Assembly (NCBI GenBank): GCA_965371325.1
Contig: CBDUXZ010000085.1
Span: 1 to 7,433, forward strand
Length of the DNA: 7,433 nt
Origin: CBDUXZ01 sp965371325 [NCBI: uncultured bacterium]
GTDB lineage: Bacteria; JAUYMQ01
Direction of reading: 5' to 3'
The notes beneath the pieces are model-generated. The model was not told the origin of the DNA. It worked only from the letters and a program-made list of their open reading frames with translations, and searched no databases. Within the stretch, counting starts at the first letter, position 1, and every line of letters starts with the position of its first letter. Of the stretch, positions 1 to 7,433 are shown one piece after another. Position numbers and translations under genes: made by a program.

Positions 1-200
1 AAAATCGAGTTGGCGAGGCCGTACCCGACGGCCACGTGAACACCCTCCGTCACCTTTATAACCCCCTGTTCGAACTCCGCGGAATGCGCGGCGAGGTCAA
101 CCTGCGCGCCCACATCGATCTCTTCATGCGTCCGCCCACCTTCGCCGCACCCATGGAAGGCGGCGGTCAAAACCAGCATAGGGATCACAAGGCGTTTCAT
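1..200 (-). CDS. Alkylsulfatase-type metallo-beta-lactamase-fold hydrolase, N-terminal part only (cut by window edge)
   Basis: Translating the minus strand from the ATG at 200 gives 66 codons that run off the left edge with no stop. Residues 1-18 (MKRLVIPMLVLTAAFHGC) look like a short export signal. It ends in Gly-Cys, so a lipoprotein is possible, but the -3/-2 residues (F, H) fit the lipobox poorly. After a short linker comes a stretch including HSAEF, GVIKVTEGVHVAVGYG and LANSI. This matches the block that opens the metallo-beta-lactamase domain of SdsA1/BDS1-type linear alkylsulfatases, which hydrolyse alkyl sulfate esters such as dodecyl sulfate. The start is supported by a strong Shine-Dalgarno (AAAAGGAG, 209-216) 8 nt upstream. 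The zinc ligands (HxHxDH), dimerisation domain and SCP2-like domain would lie outside the window. The family call is recalled from motif similarity, and substrate specificity is inferred. Confidence 0.75.
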   Translation of the reverse strand, partial: MKRLVIPMLVLTAAFHGCGEGGRTHEEIDVGAQVDLAAHSAEFEQGVIKVTEGVHVAVGYGLANSI

Positions 201-208
201 TGACACAG

Positions 209-216
209 CTCCTTTT
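209..216 (-). promoter_or_regulatory. Ribosome binding site of the alkylsulfatase-type gene
   Basis: On the minus strand AAAAGGAG lies 8 nt before the ATG at 200. It is close to the ideal anti-16S complement and fixes the start of a gene that is otherwise truncated here. Confidence 0.8.
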
Positions 217-224
217 GGTCGCGG

Positions 225-243
225 CGAGGGGCCGCGCCCCTCG
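225..243. other. Perfect GC-rich hairpin between the propeller gene and the alkylsulfatase-type gene
   Basis: CGAGGGGC (225-232) and GCCCCTCG (236-243) form an 8-bp perfect stem with a 3-nt loop. On the minus strand it ends 8 nt before the Shine-Dalgarno of the alkylsulfatase-type gene. No T-tract follows, so a classical intrinsic terminator for the upstream propeller gene is doubtful. A 5'-UTR stem-loop is equally possible. The rest of the 201-356 spacer shows nothing else convincing. Confidence 0.4.
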
Positions 244-356
244 AACGGAAGGTGGGCAGAGAATATCAGAGACGCGGGGAGCGCGGCGCCAATCGTGGAA
301 CCTGGGCCATAATCAGGAGAAGGCGTACCGGGGTAGATTGCCCGCGGAAAGCTTGA

Positions 357-2111
357 TTATCGATTGAAGGAAAGCCGGATCAACTTCGGCCGTCCCCCCT
401 CAATCTGCCAGCCGGGCAGGTTCGAATTGCTCGTCCAGATGTTTCCGTGTTCGTCTATGTCGATCTCGCGTGTAAAGGTCACACGCGTGGGAAGCGGATA
501 AACGGTGAATTTCTCCGTGCCCGGATCGAAATGAATGATCGAGTCCGAGTTCGTTCCGCAAATCCAGAGCGTGTCGGTCTTTTTGTCGACCACCAGCGCG
601 TAGGGCATGTCGCCCGGGCCCGTCGGCATGTCGTAGGAACGGAAGGAGCGGTCATCGGGATCGAAGCGATAGATTTTCGCCTCCGCGTAGGCGGGAATCC
701 ACAAAATACCCTTTGAGTCGAAGCGCAACCGGCGGGGACCAAAGAAGGGCGTGTCGATCATCTCGATCGCGCCGGTCGCTGGATCCAGGCGCCCGATGCG
801 CCGGTGGTTGAACTGGCTGAACCACACACCCCCGTCGGGGGCGATATCGAGACCGTAGGCGAGAGGCAGCATCTCCGGATCGCTAACCGCTATGTTCGCC
901 GATTCGAAAAAATCCGCCAGCCAGACCCAGAACTTCAGCGTCGAGATGAAGAACCGCTGGCTCATGGTGCGGGTCGGAAGGCGATGGAGGTCAAACTCGC
1001 CCGAGGCGGGATCAAACCGGGCGACGTGATTGCTCAGAAACAGCGTGTACCAGATGATTCCGTTCGAATCGAAGCGAAGCGTGTGGGGATACATGCCGGC
1101 GGAGGGCTGATCGTGCAGAGCGAACTTCTCGCTCTCCGGATCGAACCGCGCCAGGCCCTTCCCGAGACTGAGGGTCACCCAGACACCGCCGTCAGGCCCC
1201 ACCTGCAGGCTGTGGGGCGCCACGTGCGGCATTGCGTGGTAGTACTGCCGACCCCTTTGGGCAAAGGAACGCAGGACGCCGCCCGGCGGCACATCCCCCC
1301 GCGGAACGTCCCATTCCTCCCTCGTGGAGGTCGCGGGATCAAGCCGATAGACCTTGTCCATGATCCAGTCTGCAGCGTACACGCGCTCGTCGGCGCCGAC
1401 CACGATGTCGTGGAGCATGGAGGTCTGCGTGCCGACATCCCACTCCGTCACGATGACGCGGCCCAGATCTTCGTTTGCCCGCGGGTGTGGTTTTGAAGGC
1501 TTGTTGTTTTCGCCGACGGTATAAGCGGCGTTCAGCGCCAGGGGCGCCTCTTTCTTGAGCCGGTCGGTGATAAGGGCGCCCATCTCGGACATCTTGTCGA
1601 AGATGTCCTGCCACGCCTCGACGGGGCGGGGAATGCGGGTGTTCGGACTCCCCTGCTGGTGGCACATGGCGCACTGGATCGCGAACTCCGCGCGGAGCGC
1701 GGGATCCGAAAACTCGACCCGCGAAAACCATTCGCTGGCGGGGAGCTGGTGGATGGCATGGGCCCAGTCGACCGGGAGCATCTCGAAGTCGCGGTGCAGC
1801 GCTCCGGCCAACGTGACGGGCGTTTCCGAGACATCCAGGAAACCCACCCGCCTTGCCCGCACGGCGTAGGTGCCCGGCTCGAGGCCATTGATCCTGTATG
1901 CGCCGTCGGGGGCGCTGAAGACGGTTGTGGCCTTCTTGAGATCGGTATGCTCGACTGTCACCTGGACTCTGGTGATGGGCGCGCCGCCGGAACTGCGAAC
2001 GGTGCCACTCATTTCTCCCGCAATTGCAACCTTCGGCGAACAAACGAAGGACGCCGAAAACATCATAATAAGAAGCCCGAAGTGAATGAACCGTCTCCAA
2101 ACACCAATCAT
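357..2111 (-). CDS. Exported protein: carboxypeptidase-regulatory-like domain + CxxCH haem segment + Vgb-type beta-propeller
   Basis: Predicted product is 584 aa from the ATG at 2111. The frame is open further upstream, but this start has GAGG 6 nt ahead and places a signal peptide at the N-terminus: MIGVWRRFIHFGLLIMM..., with likely cleavage after AIA at residue 31. Residues ~33-112 form a carboxypeptidase-regulatory-like (transthyretin-like) beta-sandwich, with the typical APDGAYRINGLEPGTYAVRA core. Residues ~113-200 hold one haem c motif, C147-A-M-C150-H151. The later W167...M174-S-E-M177-G could supply a distal Met. Residues ~217-581 are a beta-propeller of repeated units (HDIVVGADERVYAAD, LQVGPDGGVWV, RFDP, LDIAPDGGVWFSQ), like Vgb streptogramin lyase. 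A non-repeat insertion sits near 380-417. The Vgb fold occurs in many proteins unrelated to virginiamycin resistance and I could not place the lyase catalytic residues, so I do not call it a resistance enzyme. A periplasmic or extracellular redox/sensor role is inferred. It is divergent from the sigma gene and co-oriented with the alkylsulfatase-type gene 156 nt downstream. Confidence 0.82.
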   Translation of the reverse strand: MIGVWRRFIHFGLLIMMFSASFVCSPKVAIAGEMSGTVRSSGGAPITRVQVTVEHTDLKKATTVFSAPDGAYRINGLEPGTYAVRARRVGFLDVSETPVTLAGALHRDFEMLPVDWAHAIHQLPASEWFSRVEFSDPALRAEFAIQCAMCHQQGSPNTRIPRPVEAWQDIFDKMSEMGALITDRLKKEAPLALNAAYTVGENNKPSKPHPRANEDLGRVIVTEWDVGTQTSMLHDIVVGADERVYAADWIMDKVYRLDPATSTREEWDVPRGDVPPGGVLRSFAQRGRQYYHAMPHVAPHSLQVGPDGGVWVTLSLGKGLARFDPESEKFALHDQPSAGMYPHTLRFDSNGIIWYTLFLSNHVARFDPASGEFDLHRLPTRTMSQRFFISTLKFWVWLADFFESANIAVSDPEMLPLAYGLDIAPDGGVWFSQFNHRRIGRLDPATGAIEMIDTPFFGPRRLRFDSKGILWIPAYAEAKIYRFDPDDRSFRSYDMPTGPGDMPYALVVDKKTDTLWICGTNSDSIIHFDPGTEKFTVYPLPTRVTFTREIDIDEHGNIWTSNSNLPGWQIEGGRPKLIRLSFNR

Positions 2112-2193
2112 TATGCGCCTCGCTTCGCGTGAACCATTCCCCAGCCCCCGCTCTTTTTCCCCTGAATACTCCGCCCGCGCCATCTTCCGGGGA

Positions 2194-2223
2194 ATTGTAA
2201 CGCGTGGCCTGCCTGATTTGCCA
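2194..2223 (-). promoter_or_regulatory. Candidate housekeeping promoter of the propeller gene
   Basis: On the minus strand TACAAT (2194-2199) is one mismatch from the sigma70 -10 consensus. An 18-nt spacer separates it from TGGCAA (2218-2223), a weak -35 (3/6 matches). Transcription would begin near 2187, giving a leader of about 75 nt to the ATG at 2111. A promoter here also argues against a start far upstream at 2264. The call rests mainly on the -10 box. Confidence 0.3.
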
Positions 2224-2247
2224 GGAACGCCCCGCGACGACCGTTCC
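2224..2247. repeat. Inverted repeat GGAAC-N14-GTTCC in the divergent spacer
   Basis: GGAAC (2224-2228) and GTTCC (2243-2247) are perfect inverted arms 14 nt apart, in the 338-bp region between the divergent propeller and sigma genes. GGAAC is also the common -35 core of ECF promoters, so each arm could be read as a -35 on one strand, but no matching -10 was seen at the usual spacing. It could be an operator. The remainder of 2112-2449 shows no credible gene. Besides the two candidate promoters it contains only an isolated TATATA at 2268-2273 with a poor -35. Confidence 0.3.
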
Positions 2248-2376
2248 AAATCCGACTCCCTCACTCGTATATACGCGCGATCCGGACGTGGCCAGGCTTG
2301 ACGGACGGACCTCGAGCGCCCAAGCTTTTCCAGGAGCAGATCCGTTCCCTGCTAGGAGCGATACAGGTTGTTCGTT

Positions 2377-2403
2377 GTATCGGAGTCCCCGTCACTGCGT
2401 CTG
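2377..2403 (+). promoter_or_regulatory. Candidate ECF-type promoter of the sigma gene (GTATC-N16-CGTCT)
   Basis: GTATC (2377-2381) is followed after 16 nt by CGTCT (2398-2402). The identical pair at identical spacing occurs before the AhpD-like gene (3120-3145). CGTC is a recurrent -10 core among ECF sigma promoters. Transcription would start near 2410, about 40 nt before the sigma ATG at 2450. Recognition by the encoded sigma factor (autoregulation) is inferred from the shared element. Confidence 0.45.
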
Positions 2404-2449
2404 GTCAACAGGGAAGCGTGATTCGCGGGACCCGGGTCAGAAGGGTGTC

Positions 2450-3055
2450 ATGCCGACGACCACACAAAGGGCGGATTTCGAGCAGGCTTATGCCGATCAT
2501 AGCGGGAAGATTCTCGCCTATCTGAGGCGCCTGACGCGCGATCCTCACCTGGGTGAGGAACTTGCCCAGGAGACCTTTATCCGGGTCAACCAGGGGCTGG
2601 ACAATTTTCGCGGCGAGGCGCGGCTTTCTACGTGGATCTACCGCATCGCGACGAACGTCTACCTGGATTTCTACCGAAGATCGAAGTCCCGGTTCCGCGA
2701 GATGCAGCCCTTCACATCGTCTTCGGTCCCTGCTCCGAGCTCCGATCCTGAGGAGCCGTCGGAGCCCAGGCTGGCGGATCGGCTCTGCGAGCAATCCGAA
2801 ATGGGGAACTGCGTGCGCGGCTTTGTCGACAGTCTCCCGCCCGAATATCGAAGCGTGATCGTTCTCCACGATCTTCAAGGCCTGAAAAACTCGGAGATAG
2901 CGCAAATCCTCGATTGCTCCCTCGGTACCGTCAAGATTCGCATCCACCGCGCCCGGCAAAGGCTGAGGGCCCTGCTCGCCCAGCACTGCGACTTCGAATA
3001 CAGCGAAGAGAACGTACTTCGCTGCGATCGGAAGCAGCCCTCGAAGCGCAGCTAA
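2450..3055 (+). CDS. ECF-type RNA polymerase sigma factor with a Cys-bearing C-terminal tail
   Basis: Product of 201 aa. The frame is open upstream, but the ATG at 2450 preceded by AGAAGGG gives the normal ECF length and begins directly at region 2. Region 2 spans ~10-79 (ADFEQAYADHS..., LAQETFIRV, ARLSTWIYRIATNVYLDFYRR) and binds core polymerase and the -10 box. A linker at 80-115 is rich in Ser, Pro and Glu. Region 4 spans ~117-175 (SLPPEYRSVIVLHDLQGL, SEIAQILDCSLGTVKIRIHRAR), a helix-turn-helix for the -35. Behind region 4 is a tail of ~25 residues with C180-DF and C192-D-R-K, a C-x11-C pair, with other cysteines at 113, 121 and 156. I recall similar Cys tails in related ECF factors, but no function is established here. 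There is no SnoaL-like extension as in ECF41 and no adjacent zinc-finger anti-sigma gene. The next gene encodes an AhpD/CMD-type protein, reminiscent of the ECF41-COE pairing, so signal sensing may be intrinsic. Confidence 0.9.
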   Translation: MPTTTQRADFEQAYADHSGKILAYLRRLTRDPHLGEELAQETFIRVNQGLDNFRGEARLSTWIYRIATNVYLDFYRRSKSRFREMQPFTSSSVPAPSSDPEEPSEPRLADRLCEQSEMGNCVRGFVDSLPPEYRSVIVLHDLQGLKNSEIAQILDCSLGTVKIRIHRARQRLRALLAQHCDFEYSEENVLRCDRKQPSKRS

Positions 3056-3119
3056 TCCCGGTTTTCCCGTCCACGCCAAGCCCCGGGAGAATATGACCGC
3101 CGCCCCCGATCTACCCGCC

Positions 3120-3146
3120 GTATCCTTTCTCGTTTCACCCCGTCTA
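3120..3146 (+). promoter_or_regulatory. Candidate ECF-type promoter of the AhpD-like gene (GTATC-N16-CGTCT)
   Basis: GTATC (3120-3124), 16 nt, then CGTCTA (3141-3146) lies in the 195-bp gap between the sigma and AhpD-like genes and repeats the element at 2377-2402. Transcription would start near 3153 and leave a leader of about 98 nt before the ATG at 3251. The long gap itself suggests that the downstream pair has its own promoter. The rest of the gap shows only two short CCCCGGGA copies (3081-3088, 3167-3174) and no clear terminator. Confidence 0.45.
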
Positions 3147-3235
3147 CGCAAAGAGAAGTGAGAAGACCCCGGGAAAGCGGCACGGCCTGCATGAACGGTG
3201 CGTCTCTCAACCACACGAGATCCCCATGACAGATG

Positions 3236-3242
3236 AAAGGAG
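3236..3242 (+). promoter_or_regulatory. Ribosome binding site that sets the AhpD-like start at 3251
   Basis: AAAGGAG ends 8 nt before the ATG at 3251. The in-frame ATG at 3233 lies just upstream of this site, so starting there would translate through the Shine-Dalgarno, and 3251 is preferred. Confidence 0.7.
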
Positions 3243-3250
3243 ATTTGGCC

Positions 3251-3835
3251 ATGCTCCGTGAAAACTCCGATCTGACCAACAAGGAGAAAGCGCTGGTAGC
3301 GCTCGCGGCGGCGATGGGAGGCGGTTGTCGAATTTGCGCAGACCGACTGCACCCCATGGCCCAAGCGGCAGGCGCATCGAACGACGAGATTGAAGGCGCC
3401 CTCCGTGAGGGTTTGCAGGCGAGGGAGGGGGCAAGCGCAATCATGAAACGAAAGGCCGAAACGCTTCTCGGTCACCGTATTCCCGCGCGGGGCGCAACCA
3501 GGGCTGCGGAAGAGCCGGGGATCGCCGGGCTCACCAGGCTGGCCGCCGCCGTTGCGGCCAACGCCGCGCCCGACGCGGCCAGGCATCTCGAGGGCGCGAG
3601 CGTCGCGGGCGTGACCGAAGGCGCAATCAACGTGGCCCTGGCGATCGCCCGGAAGGTTCGCACGAAGGCGCAGGGCTTTTCCGATGAGGAGATCGATCAG
3701 TCCCGTGAAGAGCGCCACCGCGAGGCGGCATCGCGGGTGAACGAGGTGGTCGCCGAATGCGACGGGAATCCCGAGAGCGAAACCTGTTGTGCCGAGGCGA
3801 CTCAGGGCAACGCGGACCACTGCGCCTGCGACTGA
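3251..3835 (+). CDS. Carboxymuconolactone decarboxylase/AhpD-like protein, duplicated domain, Cys-rich tail
   Basis: Product of 194 aa from the ATG at 3251. Two CMD/AhpD-type helical halves are visible. Half 1 (~8-72) has LTNKEKALVALAAAM, then C26-R-I-C29 and H34, then AGASNDEIEGAL. Half 2 (~91-147) has LTRLAAAVAANAAPDAARH112, then AGVTEGAINVALAIA. The halves align without gaps at an offset of 79. Family members use CxxCxxxH as a peroxidatic/thiol relay. Here half 1 keeps CxxC but has Leu where the His belongs (His is one residue later). Half 2 has Ala105/Asp108 for the cysteines but keeps His112. The C-terminal ~25 residues hold C170, C179, C180, H190, C191 and C193, suggesting metal binding or disulfides. 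A cytoplasmic alkylhydroperoxidase-like or disulfide reductase role is inferred. True gamma-carboxymuconolactone decarboxylation is unlikely, as no aromatic-pathway genes are nearby. It lies downstream of the ECF sigma gene and 23 nt before the small membrane gene. Confidence 0.85.
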   Translation: MLRENSDLTNKEKALVALAAAMGGGCRICADRLHPMAQAAGASNDEIEGALREGLQAREGASAIMKRKAETLLGHRIPARGATRAAEEPGIAGLTRLAAAVAANAAPDAARHLEGASVAGVTEGAINVALAIARKVRTKAQGFSDEEIDQSREERHREAASRVNEVVAECDGNPESETCCAEATQGNADHCACD

Positions 3836-3858
3836 TCTAAGAGGAAGGGGAAACGGTG

Positions 3859-4026
3859 ATGGAAATCTCTGGAACAACGCTGATTATTGTTCTGATCATC
3901 GCAGCGATCCTGCTTTGTACACGAGGTTGCTACCGCAGGTGCAGCGGAGGGTGCGGTCGGCCGGAAAAGCGGACGCTCATGGAAGGCACGACCCGAGGAG
4001 AAGCGCCACCGGAGGTCCCGTCCTGA
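3859..4026 (+). CDS. Small membrane protein (55 aa) with CX3CX3CX3C ladder
   Basis: I do not recognise this gene. It starts at the ATG at 3859 (an in-frame GTG at 3856 is an alternative), 23 nt after the AhpD-like stop, with AGGAAGGGG (3842-3850) 8 nt ahead. This is tight operonic spacing with a good ribosome site. The product begins MEISGTTLIIVLIIAAILL, giving one transmembrane helix at ~7-19. Immediately after it come C20, C24, C28 and C32, each four residues apart within basic, Gly-rich sequence (TRGCYRRC, SGGCGRPEKR). A soluble Glu/Pro-containing tail ends at S55. The positive-inside rule predicts the cysteines on the cytoplasmic side. A metal- or redox-responsive membrane partner of the AhpD-like protein or sigma factor is plausible but speculative. 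Support comes from position, ribosome site and clear membrane segment; no homologue is known to me. Confidence 0.68.
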   Translation: MEISGTTLIIVLIIAAILLCTRGCYRRCSGGCGRPEKRTLMEGTTRGEAPPEVPS

Positions 4027-4058
4027 AACCGCTGGAAGATGCAGGTTGACGCCATCGC

Positions 4059-4091
4059 CCTCGGGCCTGCGGAGATCAAGCATGCCCGAGG
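4059..4091. terminator. Possible bidirectional stem-loop between convergent genes
   Basis: CCTCGGGC (4059-4066) and GCCCGAGG (4084-4091) form a perfect 8-bp stem with a 17-nt loop, between the ends of the small membrane gene (4026) and the convergent protease gene (4097). The position suits a shared terminator, but the loop is long and neither strand has a T-tract, so the call is weak. Confidence 0.35.
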
Positions 4092-4096
4092 CGAGG

Positions 4097-4177
4097 TCAA
4101 TACCGGCGGCGCAATCCGACGGCGGCCAGCAGGAGGACGAGGAACAGGCCGAGGCCCCCAAGGGAGAGCGCCGGGAT
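4097..4177 (-). other. C-terminal sorting signal of the protease (IPTL-CTERM-like)
   Basis: Codons 1077-1102 encode IPALSLGG, a Leu/Val-rich transmembrane stretch, then RRRY at the end. This is the tripartite layout of IPTL-CTERM signals (motif IPTLxxWG, TM helix, basic tail), whose recorded partner is an exosortase. Here Thr is replaced by Ala and Trp-Gly by Gly-Gly, so it is a divergent member or a related class. Confidence 0.6.
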
Positions 4178-7100
4178 TGATGTCTGGGTACAGACGGAAG
4201 GTTGCCCCTCGCAGACAAATCCGGGATCGACCTGGCAGGCAAAACCGCAGCCGTCTCCAGGCGCCGTGCCACCGTCGTCGCATCCCTCACCTGCTGTCAC
4301 AATTCCGTCGCCGCAGACCTCGCTGCAAACCGAGGGCGCGCCGGTGCAGTTCCATCCGGACTCGAGCTGGCAGAGCCCGTCGCAGCCGTCTCCCGGCGCC
4401 GTGCCGCCGTCGTCGCACTGCTCAATCCCCTCCACCACGCCGTCTCCGCAGGTCGCGCAGGAGGGGTCGTTCGTCACGTCGAAGACGTTGTCACACTGAT
4501 CCGTCGTCTCGTTGCAGCTATCGTCCGTGCAGATGCTGCTGTCATCGCAGGCCACCGCCGTGCCTGCCTGGCAGTCGCTCACCGCGTCGCAGGTCTCCAC
4601 CCCGGTGCAGAACAGCCCGTCGTCGCAGGCGCTGTCATCGACCGTGTTGTCACACGAATCGGTCCCCTCGTTGCAGGCGTCCACCGTGCAGCCGACCCCG
4701 TCCGAGCAGTCCACCGGCGTGTCGGCGTCGCACGTCCCCGCCCCGTCGCACGTCTCCGCACCGTTGCAGAACGTCCCGTCCTCGCAGGATGAACCGGAGG
4801 CCTCGAACGTGCAGCTCGCCGAGCAGCAGTCCCCGCCCACCGTGTTCCCGTCGTCACACCCCTCACTCGCGGTAAGAATTCCATCGCCGCATACCTCGCT
4901 GCAGACAGACGGCGCACCGCCGCAGCTCCAGCCCGACTCCAGCTGGCAGCTCGCGTCGCAGCCGTCTCCAGGCGCCGTGCCGCCGTCGTCGCAGGCTTCG
5001 GTGCCCCCGATGATCCCGTCGCCACAGACAATGTTTGCGCCGTTGTAGACCACCAGTGCGAAGTCCTGATCGAAGTTGTCGCCGACATTGGGAACGCCGT
5101 TCCCGGCAATGTTCGAGGCTCTAACGGTGATCGTGAAGCTGCCCGTGGTTCCGGCCGGGAGCCAGACACTCTCCACGTTATTCGCGCCGTCGGCTGCTCC
5201 TCCCGTCTGCGACACATCCGCCGAGAAGTTATTGCCGCGATAGAGCACGGGGCCGCCTCCGCTGTCGATATTCACCTCGAGATCCAGATCGTTGATCCAG
5301 GCGTTCCCGACGGTGGGCCCGGGAGCATCGGTCCAGGCAAGGGTCACGCGAAAAGGGAGCGCAACATTCTGGATCGTCCCGGTACTTTGGTGGGTCTCTC
5401 CGGTGGCGTCGAGAATGGCCGTTTGATCGACGAGCGTACGCGCCGCACTGTCAAAGCTGCGCCCGAGGTTCATCCGGCCCATCCCCTGGGTGTTTGACGG
5501 CAGCGTATCGTTGGCGGCTACCCCGGTCATGCGCGTCGCGGCGTTCATGAGGTAGGCTTTGAGCATGGCCGGGGATGGCGCGGCGCGCCCCTGATTCAGG
5601 AACCACTGGCGCACCAGGGCGGCCCCGCCCGAAACCGCAGGCGTGGAGTGGCTGGTTCCGCTCGACCACGCGTAGAGCGTCTGGCCGGCGGGATGGAACT
5701 TGTCGCAAACGCCGACCCCGCTGTTTCCCGGATCCTGGGAGGCTGCGCCGCGGATGTGGGTCCCGGGCGCCATGATATCCGGCTTGATACGGCCGTCCTG
5801 CACGGGACCCCGGCTCGAGAAGCCGATCACGTCGTGCGCGTTATCCGCCCCCGAGTTTCCGACGCCGCAGCCGTCCGTCCCCGCCAGATTGAAGTTCTCC
5901 CCCGCTCCCACGACAAGCGTGTTCTTCGACGTGGCCCCGTCGTTCCCGAGATCTTCTCGCCGGCAGCCTCCATGATTTCCCGCGGCGAATACGATCAGAA
6001 TTTCCTGGTTCCCGACTTCGCCTCCGCCCGGTGCGGTTCCGGGACGCGCGTCGCGTGTCAGGGCATCAAACTCCTGCGAGTCCGCGGTGTAGCTGCTCAG
6101 AACGCGGGGCGGGCAGCAACCGTTGGGGTTACAACCGGAACCCCAGCTGTTCGAGCTCATTCGGGCCCCGTTCGCATAGGCGGCGCTCGTCAAGGCGGTG
6201 TGATCGGGGTTCGTCCAATTGGGGGCAAAGATCCGGGAGCTGCCTACCAGGGCGAAGGGGGCGATCCCCAATCCGTACTGGAAACCGCTACCATCCTCGA
6301 AGGCTGTGCCCGTGCTGTCGTTCAGGCCGCCGACGATCGCCGCGTTGATGGTGCCGTGGCCATCGATATCCACGTTGCTTGCCGCCGTGGTATCGATGGT
6401 GATTCCGGTCACTTTCTGCACGTAAGCGACACGGCTGCCACCCCCGGAATCGAGAAAGTCCGCGTGTAAATTCGCCGCCGTTATTTGCCCCCGGTCGAGA
6501 CCGCTGTCACTTACATTGACCGAAAAACTGAAATTGCTGGTGAAACCCAGACCGTTCAACCAGGCAAGGTAGCCGGGGCCGGTGGGCTGGGTGCCCGCCA
6601 CGTTGACCTGGTCGCCGAGAATCTGTCCCTGGATCTCGCCGGATAGCTTAGGCTCAACCCAGGGCTCCACGTTCACCACGTCGGGAAGCTTCGCGATGCT
6701 CTCCAGCGCATCCTCCGGGACAACCAGCCGCAGGTTCACGTAGGGGGGCACGTTCCACGCGTCGCGCAAAAGCTTCCGGGCTTTTCCCTTGATGATGTTG
6801 ATCGATTCGGCGACACCGGCGTGATCCACCAGCTGAACCGTGACCTTGACCTCTCCGGCGCCGCCTGCATTGAGGCTGGGATGAACACGGTAGGCGGGAT
6901 GATAGGGGCCCACGAACTGCACGAACGTGTTTCGGTGCACCAAGCTTCGGAGCTTCCCGAGCGCGGCGCCACTGGCCCTGATCAGATAAGCGTTGTTCGC
7001 CAGATAGGTGACGGCCTCGACGCTCCCCTGCCCCCGCACCTCGGTGAGCCACTCTTCCTTGATAGGGCCCGCGAACTGGATCAGATAAAGCCGGGGCGCC

Positions 7101-7433
7101 GGTGATGGGCGGAGGGCGAGGTCTTCTCGAACCGGCGGGAGGGGTTTCGTCGTATCGATTGAGCGATCTCGCAGGGTGATCCGGTTGAGATCATCCCGTA
7201 CGGTGACCGCTCTTCTCTGCGAGGGGGTGAGCGCGCCCGCCGTGTCGGCGCGCACGATATAGACCTTCCGGTCCGGATAGTCGATCACGAAGCGGGCGCT
7301 CAGGGCATCCGCGATGGCCAACCCCTCGCTGTTGTCCTTGAAGACGACGATTTTCGTGGTTCCACGATGGGCGGCGGTTTCTTTCACGACCTCCTGAGCG
7401 CGCACCGCCTCCGGACAGAAGTCAAAACAGGCG
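4097..7433 (-). CDS. Secreted subtilisin-family (S8) serine protease with Cys-rich repeats and C-terminal sorting signal; 5' end outside window
   Basis: The frame is open to the right edge. A GTG at 7405 could start it, but the codons before it (FCPEAVRAQEVV) read as protein and GGAGG is only 2 nt away, so I treat the gene as partial; the signal peptide is not seen. Numbering below is from 7405 (1102 codons). Residues ~101-250 hold two propeptide-like alpha/beta modules (LYLIQFAGPIKEEWL..., LRLVVPEDALESIAKLPDV). The S8 catalytic domain spans ~290-650: D300 (VSDSGLD), H350 (DGHGT), oxyanion N477 (FAAGNHGG) and S585 (SSGTSHSTP), all present, so activity is expected. A C-terminal beta-sandwich (~660-790; VTLAWTDAPG, INDLDLEV) resembles that of KP-43-type subtilases. 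Residues 794-1072 are Cys-rich repeats. The end, IPALS then a hydrophobic helix and RRRY, is an IPTL-CTERM-like anchor. Likely role: a cell-surface or released protease. It is convergent with the sigma cluster. Confidence 0.9.
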   Translation of the reverse strand, partial: ACFDFCPEAVRAQEVVKETAAHRGTTKIVVFKDNSEGLAIADALSARFVIDYPDRKVYIVRADTAGALTPSQRRAVTVRDDLNRITLRDRSIDTTKPLPPVREDLALRPSPAPRLYLIQFAGPIKEEWLTEVRGQGSVEAVTYLANNAYLIRASGAALGKLRSLVHRNTFVQFVGPYHPAYRVHPSLNAGGAGEVKVTVQLVDHAGVAESINIIKGKARKLLRDAWNVPPYVNLRLVVPEDALESIAKLPDVVNVEPWVEPKLSGEIQGQILGDQVNVAGTQPTGPGYLAWLNGLGFTSNFSFSVNVSDSGLDRGQITAANLHADFLDSGGGSRVAYVQKVTGITIDTTAASNVDIDGHGTINAAIVGGLNDSTGTAFEDGSGFQYGLGIAPFALVGSSRIFAPNWTNPDHTALTSAAYANGARMSSNSWGSGCNPNGCCPPRVLSSYTADSQEFDALTRDARPGTAPGGGEVGNQEILIVFAAGNHGGCRREDLGNDGATSKNTLVVGAGENFNLAGTDGCGVGNSGADNAHDVIGFSSRGPVQDGRIKPDIMAPGTHIRGAASQDPGNSGVGVCDKFHPAGQTLYAWSSGTSHSTPAVSGGAALVRQWFLNQGRAAPSPAMLKAYLMNAATRMTGVAANDTLPSNTQGMGRMNLGRSFDSAARTLVDQTAILDATGETHQSTGTIQNVALPFRVTLAWTDAPGPTVGNAWINDLDLEVNIDSGGGPVLYRGNNFSADVSQTGGAADGANNVESVWLPAGTTGSFTITVRASNIAGNGVPNVGDNFDQDFALVVYNGANIVCGDGIIGGTEACDDGGTAPGDGCDASCQLESGWSCGGAPSVCSEVCGDGILTASEGCDDGNTVGGDCCSASCTFEASGSSCEDGTFCNGAETCDGAGTCDADTPVDCSDGVGCTVDACNEGTDSCDNTVDDSACDDGLFCTGVETCDAVSDCQAGTAVACDDSSICTDDSCNETTDQCDNVFDVTNDPSCATCGDGVVEGIEQCDDGGTAPGDGCDGLCQLESGWNCTGAPSVCSEVCGDGIVTAGEGCDDGGTAPGDGCGFACQVDPGFVCEGQPSVCTQTSIPALSLGGLGLFLVLLLAAVGLRRRY
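4190..5026 (-). repeat. Six tandem Cys-rich modules in the protease: 2 DUF4215-like, 2 different Cys modules, 2 DUF4215-like
   Basis: Four modules follow the 'Myxococcus cysteine-rich repeat' pattern (CGDG...E.CDDG..A.GDGC...C): 4901-5026, 4784-4891, 4325-4450 and 4190-4315. The second is variant (GDCCSASC instead of GDGC). Between them are two modules of another pattern (C.DG.FC.G.ETCD...C....V.C.D...CT.D.CNE.TD.CDN): 4646-4786 and 4487-4627. Such modules act as disulfide-rich, probably Ca-binding stalks of secreted proteins; the Asp richness (CDDG) fits. The block bridges the catalytic part and the membrane anchor. Confidence 0.8.
4246..4993. repeat. Three near-identical ~37-39 bp DNA copies inside the Cys-repeat block
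   Basis: Copies at 4246-4282, 4379-4417 and 4955-4993 encode the CDDGGTAPGDGC core. The first differs from the third at one base over 37, and the second differs from the third at one base over 39. Synonymous positions are conserved too, suggesting recent duplication or gene conversion within the gene. Confidence 0.75.

Follow-up and report, generated by a model that had tools for sequence, protein, structure and literature searches.

A cysteine-tailed ECF sigma factor beside an AhpD-like gene and a membrane cysteine peptide: a candidate thiol-based stress regulon in an uncultured bacterium

Contig CBDUXZ010000085.1 of the uncultured bacterium CBDUXZ01 sp965371325 was analysed over positions 1 to 7,433 (7,433 nucleotides; hereafter the window). 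Three consecutive open reading frames (ORFs) on the plus strand at positions 2450-4026 encode an extracytoplasmic function (ECF) sigma factor with a short cysteine tail, an AhpD-like protein of the CMD family, and a single-pass membrane peptide. We lean towards the view that this trio belongs to a small thiol-based stress regulon whose ECF sigma factor carries its own cysteine sensor. Comparison across relatives shows a conserved gene association, conserved cysteine tails on both partners, a conserved promoter next to the sigma gene, and thiol-rich genes behind that promoter. The three ORFs and their cysteine-rich ends had been noted in a preliminary description, and both were found again on reading the sequence: C180-x11-C192 in the sigma factor, five Cys and one His in the last 25 residues of the CMD protein, and CX3CX3CX3C in the peptide. 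The interpretation offered there, a self-regulated thiol/redox or metal module, is partly supported by what follows.

A cysteine-tailed sigma factor group and its partners

The window sigma factor is an ECF consisting of sigma2 and sigma4 alone and is related to known ECFs (Pfam; structure search). Its cysteines lie at positions 113, 121, 156, 180, and 192, the last two on a predicted beta hairpin (AlphaFold model). A pattern for the tail-coding DNA matched 104 stretches in genome contigs, 11 of which encode relatives of the sigma factor (BLASTP E < 1e-3), one as a truncated gene; the closest of these pattern-found relatives, at locus L019, is 58% identical to the window sigma factor (BLASTP). 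A profile built from alignment A1 (the window sigma factor and ten pattern-found relatives, 11 rows) gave at least 177 bits for tail-type sigma factors and at most 146 bits for other ECFs, adding 19 genes for a group of 31 including the window sigma factor. The C-x11-C tail is present in 31/31 group members versus 0/36 other ECF sigma factors of the same genomes, a comparison with some circularity, in that the tail helped to define membership: 11 of the 30 relatives came from the tail pattern itself, and the profile that contributed the other 19 was built with the tail columns in place. In the same sequences, the motif [E/Q]MxxC of the linker occurs in 31/31 versus 3/36; its cysteine, Cys121, is invariant in A1 though outside the search pattern, and Cys113 is not conserved.

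When the tail was removed beforehand, the 31 tail-bearing sigma factors still fell into one group of 33 rows in the tree (96/87). The two additional rows are L228, nested inside the group with its cysteines lost, and the long-branch L141; because both fall within the group, the tail label does not map strictly onto a single branch of the tree (3 changes). At L228 (1420-1971 and 1980-2255, both minus strand), the sigma linker and tail cysteines and the CMD cysteine tail have been lost together, while the sigma ORF is open and the CMD CxxC is kept; this sigma-CMD pair is followed by a DGC gene that has the shared promoter described below.

Genomes with a group sigma factor numbered 13/297 in the phylum of G003 (Desulfobulbaceae), 5/132 in that of G004 (Zixiibacteriota), 1/299 in that of G006 (Betaproteobacteria; G006 itself), and 0/235 in that of G012 (Myxococcota); the phylum of G002 was represented in the search by G002 alone. 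All matches to the window sigma factor in a plasmid search were below 60% identity, and the window CMD protein had no match there. A virus collection gave one weak sigma relative; its 13 matches to the tail pattern were rejected as not being sigma factors (translations judged by eye). A further query against the genome contigs (P0002) matched 198 stretches, with no confirmed relatives.

The CMD partner exceeds the PF02627 gathering cut-off (32.7 versus 23 bits) and contains C26-x2-C29. It had been described as a split AhpD-like protein; in fact a single uninterrupted ORF carries both CMD repeats in tandem, the second lacking the CxxC (profile-profile probability 95, E 2e-8), and BLASTP of the two halves against each other gave nothing significant. 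The start at 3251 is preceded by AAAGGAG, and an ATG at 3233 is likewise open. The divergent neighbor at L176 is also a tandem CMD, with both CxxC motifs kept. In a fold search with the CMD model (predicted local distance difference test [pLDDT] 68), AhpD came first and RclX was among the best, all at E 0.2 or worse.

A neighborhood survey of stop-to-stop ORFs within about 6 kb found a CMD ORF near 16/31 group sigma factors, mostly directly adjacent, with the reservation that 5 of these 16 CMDs had built the CMD model used (A2). As a control, a CMD lay within 2 kb of 1/57 other sigma-4 (PF08281) matches in 14 genomes, that one being L228. Since these 14 genomes had been chosen beforehand for a known sigma-adjacent CMD, the rate of 14/17 found within them is flattering, and 16/31 is the fair figure. 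At least two cysteines in the last 25 residues were found in 16/17 sigma-associated CMDs (the exception being L019) versus 2/27 other CMDs of the same genomes; the controls came from 61 CMD places, 30 of them with DNA and 27 used, two rows being one protein. Among the two control CMDs with such cysteines, one is cut at a contig end and the other has its cysteines in the core. Neither outcome that would have told against the preliminary description, separate occurrence of the homologues or unconserved tail cysteines, appeared when it was sought, with the reservation that the full trio in window order occurs in one relative (L179) and that the nearest relative, L019, has sigma factor and CMD only, this CMD being the one without a Cys tail.

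In five Zixibacteria loci (L160, L161, L182, L183, and L184), where no CMD ORF was otherwise seen, an AhpD-like gene lies 2-4.4 kb downstream of the sigma factor. All five genes have one in-frame TGA, at CRY-U-LTVH, followed by a predicted hairpin, and are candidate selenocysteine genes judging from these features; with the TGA read as U, the L160 copy matches PF02627 at 1.8e-16. At L172, a second CMD match (G147:C298:16822-17022) is likewise interrupted by a single in-frame TGA and lies near ArsR and ArsM genes.

The membrane peptide begins 23 nt past the CMD stop. Its C20, C24, C28, and C32 directly follow its sole hydrophobic stretch (hydropathy maximum 2.79 at residues 3-19), and it has no Pfam or NCBIfam family and no significant sequence match. 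At L179 the order of sigma factor, promoter, Cys-tailed CMD, and membrane Cys peptide is identical to that of the window, with no significant BLASTP match between the two peptides (E 0.14). At 16/31 tail-type loci, a small one-pass protein with cysteines in a basic segment after the membrane stretch is encoded no more than about 2.1 kb from the sigma stop (11 of the SHOCT type and 5 of a Zixibacteria type; in 14/16 a cysteine lies at most 20 residues past the stretch), versus 0/20 control loci. In G007, the promoter described below is twice followed by such a peptide as its first ORF; for one of these two sites, the nearest tail-type sigma factor is about 0.3 Mb away. Because such peptides recur at the 16 loci and at the G007 promoter sites, the third element is a recurrent type of neighbor, and the assignment of the window peptide to this type rests on architecture and position.

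A shared promoter and the genes behind it

Most group loci share an ECF-type promoter, TGTA(A/T)CC-TTT-N12/13-CGTC, which occurs in two forms. The first, TGTAAC-N17-CGTC, is present in 9/10 CMD-first operons with a constant spacer, 31-77 nt upstream of the CMD start (shuffles, 4/3000). Across 20 whole genomes, TGTAACCT-N15-CGTC has 15 sites, 13 of them at group sigma loci (one being the L228 locus), versus 4 for the reversed pattern. The second form, TGTATCC-N-TT-N12/13-CGTC, lies directly after the sigma gene in sigma-first loci. With matrices that exclude the clade being scored, the best site of a locus adjoins the sigma gene on the same strand in 25/31 loci. A matrix score of 17 is reached in 26/31 group loci versus 0/20 control ECF loci, most of the 31 (excluding the window and L019) being training loci. 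The training sites were chosen by eye, with the window and L019 left out, and the penalty on the 12-nt spacer was relaxed after a first, stricter matrix scan had been seen.

In the window, the predicted site begins 64 nt past the end of the sigma stop codon, with 107 nt between the end of its CGTC and the CMD start. Its held-out score is 19.6, the next best site in the whole window on both strands being 7.0 (P=0.001); under the stricter spacer penalty it scores 13.4, against a null 95% point of 11.1. L019 has a site at the equivalent place (P=0.001), the sole match to GTATCC-N-TT-N12/13-CGTC in its whole genome. Because the promoter sits between the sigma and AhpD-like genes, the sigma factor most likely drives the operon of the CMD protein and membrane peptide from 3119-3147, a prediction that the comparison of loci supports well. 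The matrix scan found no good site before the window sigma gene, so that self-regulation, as first proposed, is unsupported in the window; CMD-first relatives do carry the promoter ahead of the sigma gene.

In relatives, the genes behind promoter sites include CMD-sigma operons and the following: (i) in G007, a SHOCT membrane peptide with a DGC-domain protein, and a SHOCT peptide with a Cys protein that we call CFCP; (ii) in G248, a DGC protein; (iii) in G134, a Met/Cys-rich small protein, then ArsR and an ArsP-type permease; and (iv) in G259, a UXX-star glutaredoxin, a DUF2173 protein, and a small CxxC protein ahead of CFCP. As annotated, these promoter-linked genes largely encode thiol proteins, and their theme is thiol and metal(loid) chemistry. 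CFCP itself (VLIVPCRFCPAA-like motif) was observed near 11/31 Cys-tailed sigma factors (L159, L160, L161, L163, L166-L168, and L182-L185) versus 0/20 controls, with no Pfam family in the copies scanned.

Proposed mechanism, alternatives, and known systems

Together, these observations suggest a mechanism in which the three sigma cysteines in CorE-like positions, one in the linker and two joined on the C-terminal hairpin, would act as the sensor; this role is inferred by analogy with CorE and OrbS. Modification of the thiols, or the binding or loss of a thiophilic metal(loid), would yield an active sigma factor that transcribes from TGTA(A/T)CC-TTT-N12/13-CGTC. In the window, this would produce the CMD protein and the membrane peptide, and in CMD-first relatives the promoter would drive the sigma gene too, giving positive feedback. 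The AhpD-like protein may then reduce or capture the offending species through its CxxC and Cys tail, and the peptide may provide a membrane-bound cluster of thiols that probably faces the cytoplasm. In this scheme, the signal, the way in which it turns the switch, and the functions of the products are inferred.

Several observations weigh against this mechanism. No CMD is in reach at 10/31 loci, some of which are contig ends. In L019, the nearest relative, the sigma factor retains its tail but the adjacent CMD has none, and the locus has no room for a membrane peptide. The model of the sigma tail is of modest confidence (local pLDDT 65-70). L164, L169, and L177 have no good promoter site. The TGTATCC form also discriminates less well: of its 36 matches across 16 genomes, 15 fall at tail-type sigma loci, and the reversed pattern gives 8; when 13 of its 21 sites outside sigma loci were inspected, 9/13 had no recognizable target. 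Two further points in this direction, a possible zinc site and an anti-sigma route within the group, also bear on the first alternative.

Small hairpins with cysteines frequently bind zinc in a structural role. The sigma cysteines in linker and tail may do no more than stabilize sigma4, with the switch being control of sigma transcription or an unlinked anti-sigma factor and the CMD operon just a target. Two cysteines 11 residues apart could indeed be a simple zinc site, and a zf-HC2 (ZAS-like) gene abuts the sigma stop in 5/5 Zixibacteria members (confirmed by Pfam in 3 of 5), so that an anti-sigma route does exist within the group. The preliminary description had reported the absence of a classical anti-sigma gene, which holds for the window, where Pfam and NCBIfam scans of five genes found none, and fails for these Zixibacteria loci. 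At L228, however, a sigma ORF that is still open has lost these cysteines, and the Cys tail of its partner CMD is gone as well, which argues that the cysteines of the two proteins are coupled beyond the folding of the sigma factor. We regard the structural role as a serious but rather unlikely explanation.

Just as unlikely, in our estimate, is a module dedicated to sensing and handling arsenite, methylarsenicals, or a similar thiophilic metal(loid). An arsenite methyltransferase (NF008823, above cut-off) lies near 4/31 sigma factors (L170, L172, L179, and L180), ArsR stands beside ArsM at L172, an LMWPc-family (ArsC-type) gene is present at L178, and ArsR and ArsP lie behind the promoter in G134. 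Scans of the window CMD and of three partners gave matches to the AhpD domains of the selenoprotein-type families NF041537, NF045649, and NF041047, all below the curated cut-offs; the matches of the three partners to the first two are those that bear on arsenic. However, 4/31 versus 0/20 for the same ArsM type in controls is no clear difference, and no ars gene was recognized in the window, L019, Zixibacteria, or Desulfobulbaceae loci (gene lists and BLAST only). One control locus has an arsenosugar-type ArsM. An ArsM-like match at L165 proved to be a general methyltransferase, which lowered a first count of 5/31 to 4/31. The arsenite methyltransferase genes prove nothing by themselves, and arsenic is a hint only.

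A disulfide redox relay, in which the CxxC and tail of the AhpD-like protein reduce or oxidize the sigma cysteines and the target enzyme closes a feedback loop, seems somewhat less probable again. It would fit the correlated presence and loss of cysteines in both partners, the CMD as main target, and the use of CxxC by AhpD-type proteins (PMC3426412). L019 speaks against it by pairing a Cys-tailed sigma factor with a tail-less CMD, as does PMC3426412, in which no role in signaling was observed for the COE proteins of ECF41 (SigJ, Ecf41Bli). More doubtful still is a direct thiol- or metalloid-transfer loop, in which the Cys tail of the target would load or unload the sigma linker and tail thiols, with the membrane peptide as a third station. 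A chance meeting of an ordinary ECF sigma factor with a CMD gene of no relation to it and a short ORF that is not a real gene is highly improbable: the peptide is without a significant sequence match and L019 lacks it, but chance is already contradicted for the sigma factor and CMD, and the association, tail, and promoter results and the same trio order at L179 stand against it.

The proposed thiol-based regulon resembles ECF41 in arrangement, as the preliminary description had recognized. The sigma factor has no SnoaL domain and is not an ECF41 member. According to PMC3426412, ECF41 likewise has no obvious anti-sigma factor, a CxxC CMD gene beside the sigma gene as target (a prediction here), and either CMD-sigma or sigma-CMD order; by this analogy, the CMD gene is most likely the main target. 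The -10 element CGTC is shared, with a spacer of 16 +/- 1 in ECF41 and 16 nt after TGTAACC here (PMC3426412). In contrast to ECF41, only about 25 residues follow sigma4, with no SnoaL family match; the -35 element is TGTA(A/T)CC-TTT rather than that of TGTCACA-N16-CGTC (PMC3426412); and both partners have Cys tails, the word cysteine being absent from the main text of PMC3426412.

The possible sensor is reminiscent of CorE and OrbS, which sense metals through C-terminal cysteines (PMC8999054, PMC3107203, PMC9023288). CorE and CorE2 (ECF238, former ECF44) have cysteines in the sigma2-sigma4 linker and in a short C-terminal extension and no anti-sigma factor, according to PMC8999054 and PMC3107203; there, however, six Cys lie in a 38-residue extension and the linker has a CXC, which holds only for former ECF44 members (PMC8999054), whereas the present group conserves a single Cys in the linker and a pair in the tail (x11). 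The Fe(II)-sensing OrbS similarly has cysteines just past region 4.2 in a short tail, the role of on-board metal sensor being that of OrbS (PMC9023288); it differs in its C-X2-C-X3-C-X5-C tail, its siderophore regulon, and its assignment to ECF243 (PMC9023288). The CMD resembles the ArsM/AhpD-domain selenoproteins and GSU3128-family (seleno)proteins (NF041537, NF045649, and NF041047) in the AhpD domain, matched below cut-offs, and is unlike them in standing alone, with a Cys tail and a sigma partner. A literature search whose coverage left out the 2021 ECF re-classification and a 2025 selenoprotein-neighborhood paper turned up nothing on ECF sigma factors that combine a C-x11-C tail with a CMD partner, so a numbered ECF group may already exist.

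Window layout and implications

The plus-strand trio is enclosed by two minus-strand genes (Table 1). The S8 peptidase has DUF4215/myxo_disulf_rpt cysteine repeats and a C-terminal hydrophobic segment with RRRY, resembling a surface-sorted protein. The propeller is preceded by a carboxypeptidase-regulatory-like domain, and its CAMCH (CxxCH) motif could bind haem.

Table 1. Genes and sequence features of the window
Feature	Position	Strand	Evidence or remark
Vgb-lyase-like propeller gene	357-2264	minus	flanks trio
ECF sigma factor (sigma2 + sigma4), short cysteine tail, 201 aa	2450..3055	+	Pfam Sigma70_r2 and r4_2; structure search gives ECF sigma factors; Cys-tailed ECF group
Linker Cys121 codon (xMxxC, directly before sigma4)	2810..2812	+	11-row alignment; linker motif counts
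C180-x11-C192 tail of sigma factor	2987..3025	+	predicted beta hairpin, strands 180-184 and 190-194; AlphaFold local pLDDT about 65-70
Predicted cognate ECF promoter CGTATCCTTT-N12-CGTCTAC	3119..3147	+	held-out matrix
AhpD-like/CMD-family protein, two CMD repeats, 194 aa	3251..3835	+	PF02627 E=7e-8; repeat by hhalign
CxxC active-site motif (C26-RI-C29), first CMD repeat	3326..3337	+	sequence reading
Degenerate second CMD repeat, CxxC replaced	3521..3700	+	profile-profile comparison
Cysteine-rich CMD tail, 5 Cys and 1 His in 25 aa	3758..3832	+	sequence reading; tail comparison
Single-pass membrane peptide, juxtamembrane CX3CX3CX3C and basic residues, 55 aa	3859..4026	+	hydropathy; AGGAAGG before ATG
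S8 peptidase gene with cysteine-rich repeats	4097-7405	minus	flanks trio

Because the arrangement and its control sequence recur in other bacterial groups, a little-known thiol or metal stress switch is likely. A little-known ECF group thereby gains a testable promoter, a predicted regulon, and defined cysteines to mutate. If the thiols are indeed the sensor, the group would represent a further design beside CorE and OrbS, a sigma factor with a built-in anti-sigma, and small Cys-tailed AhpD-like proteins, together with several unnamed thiol proteins, would be placed in one stress response.

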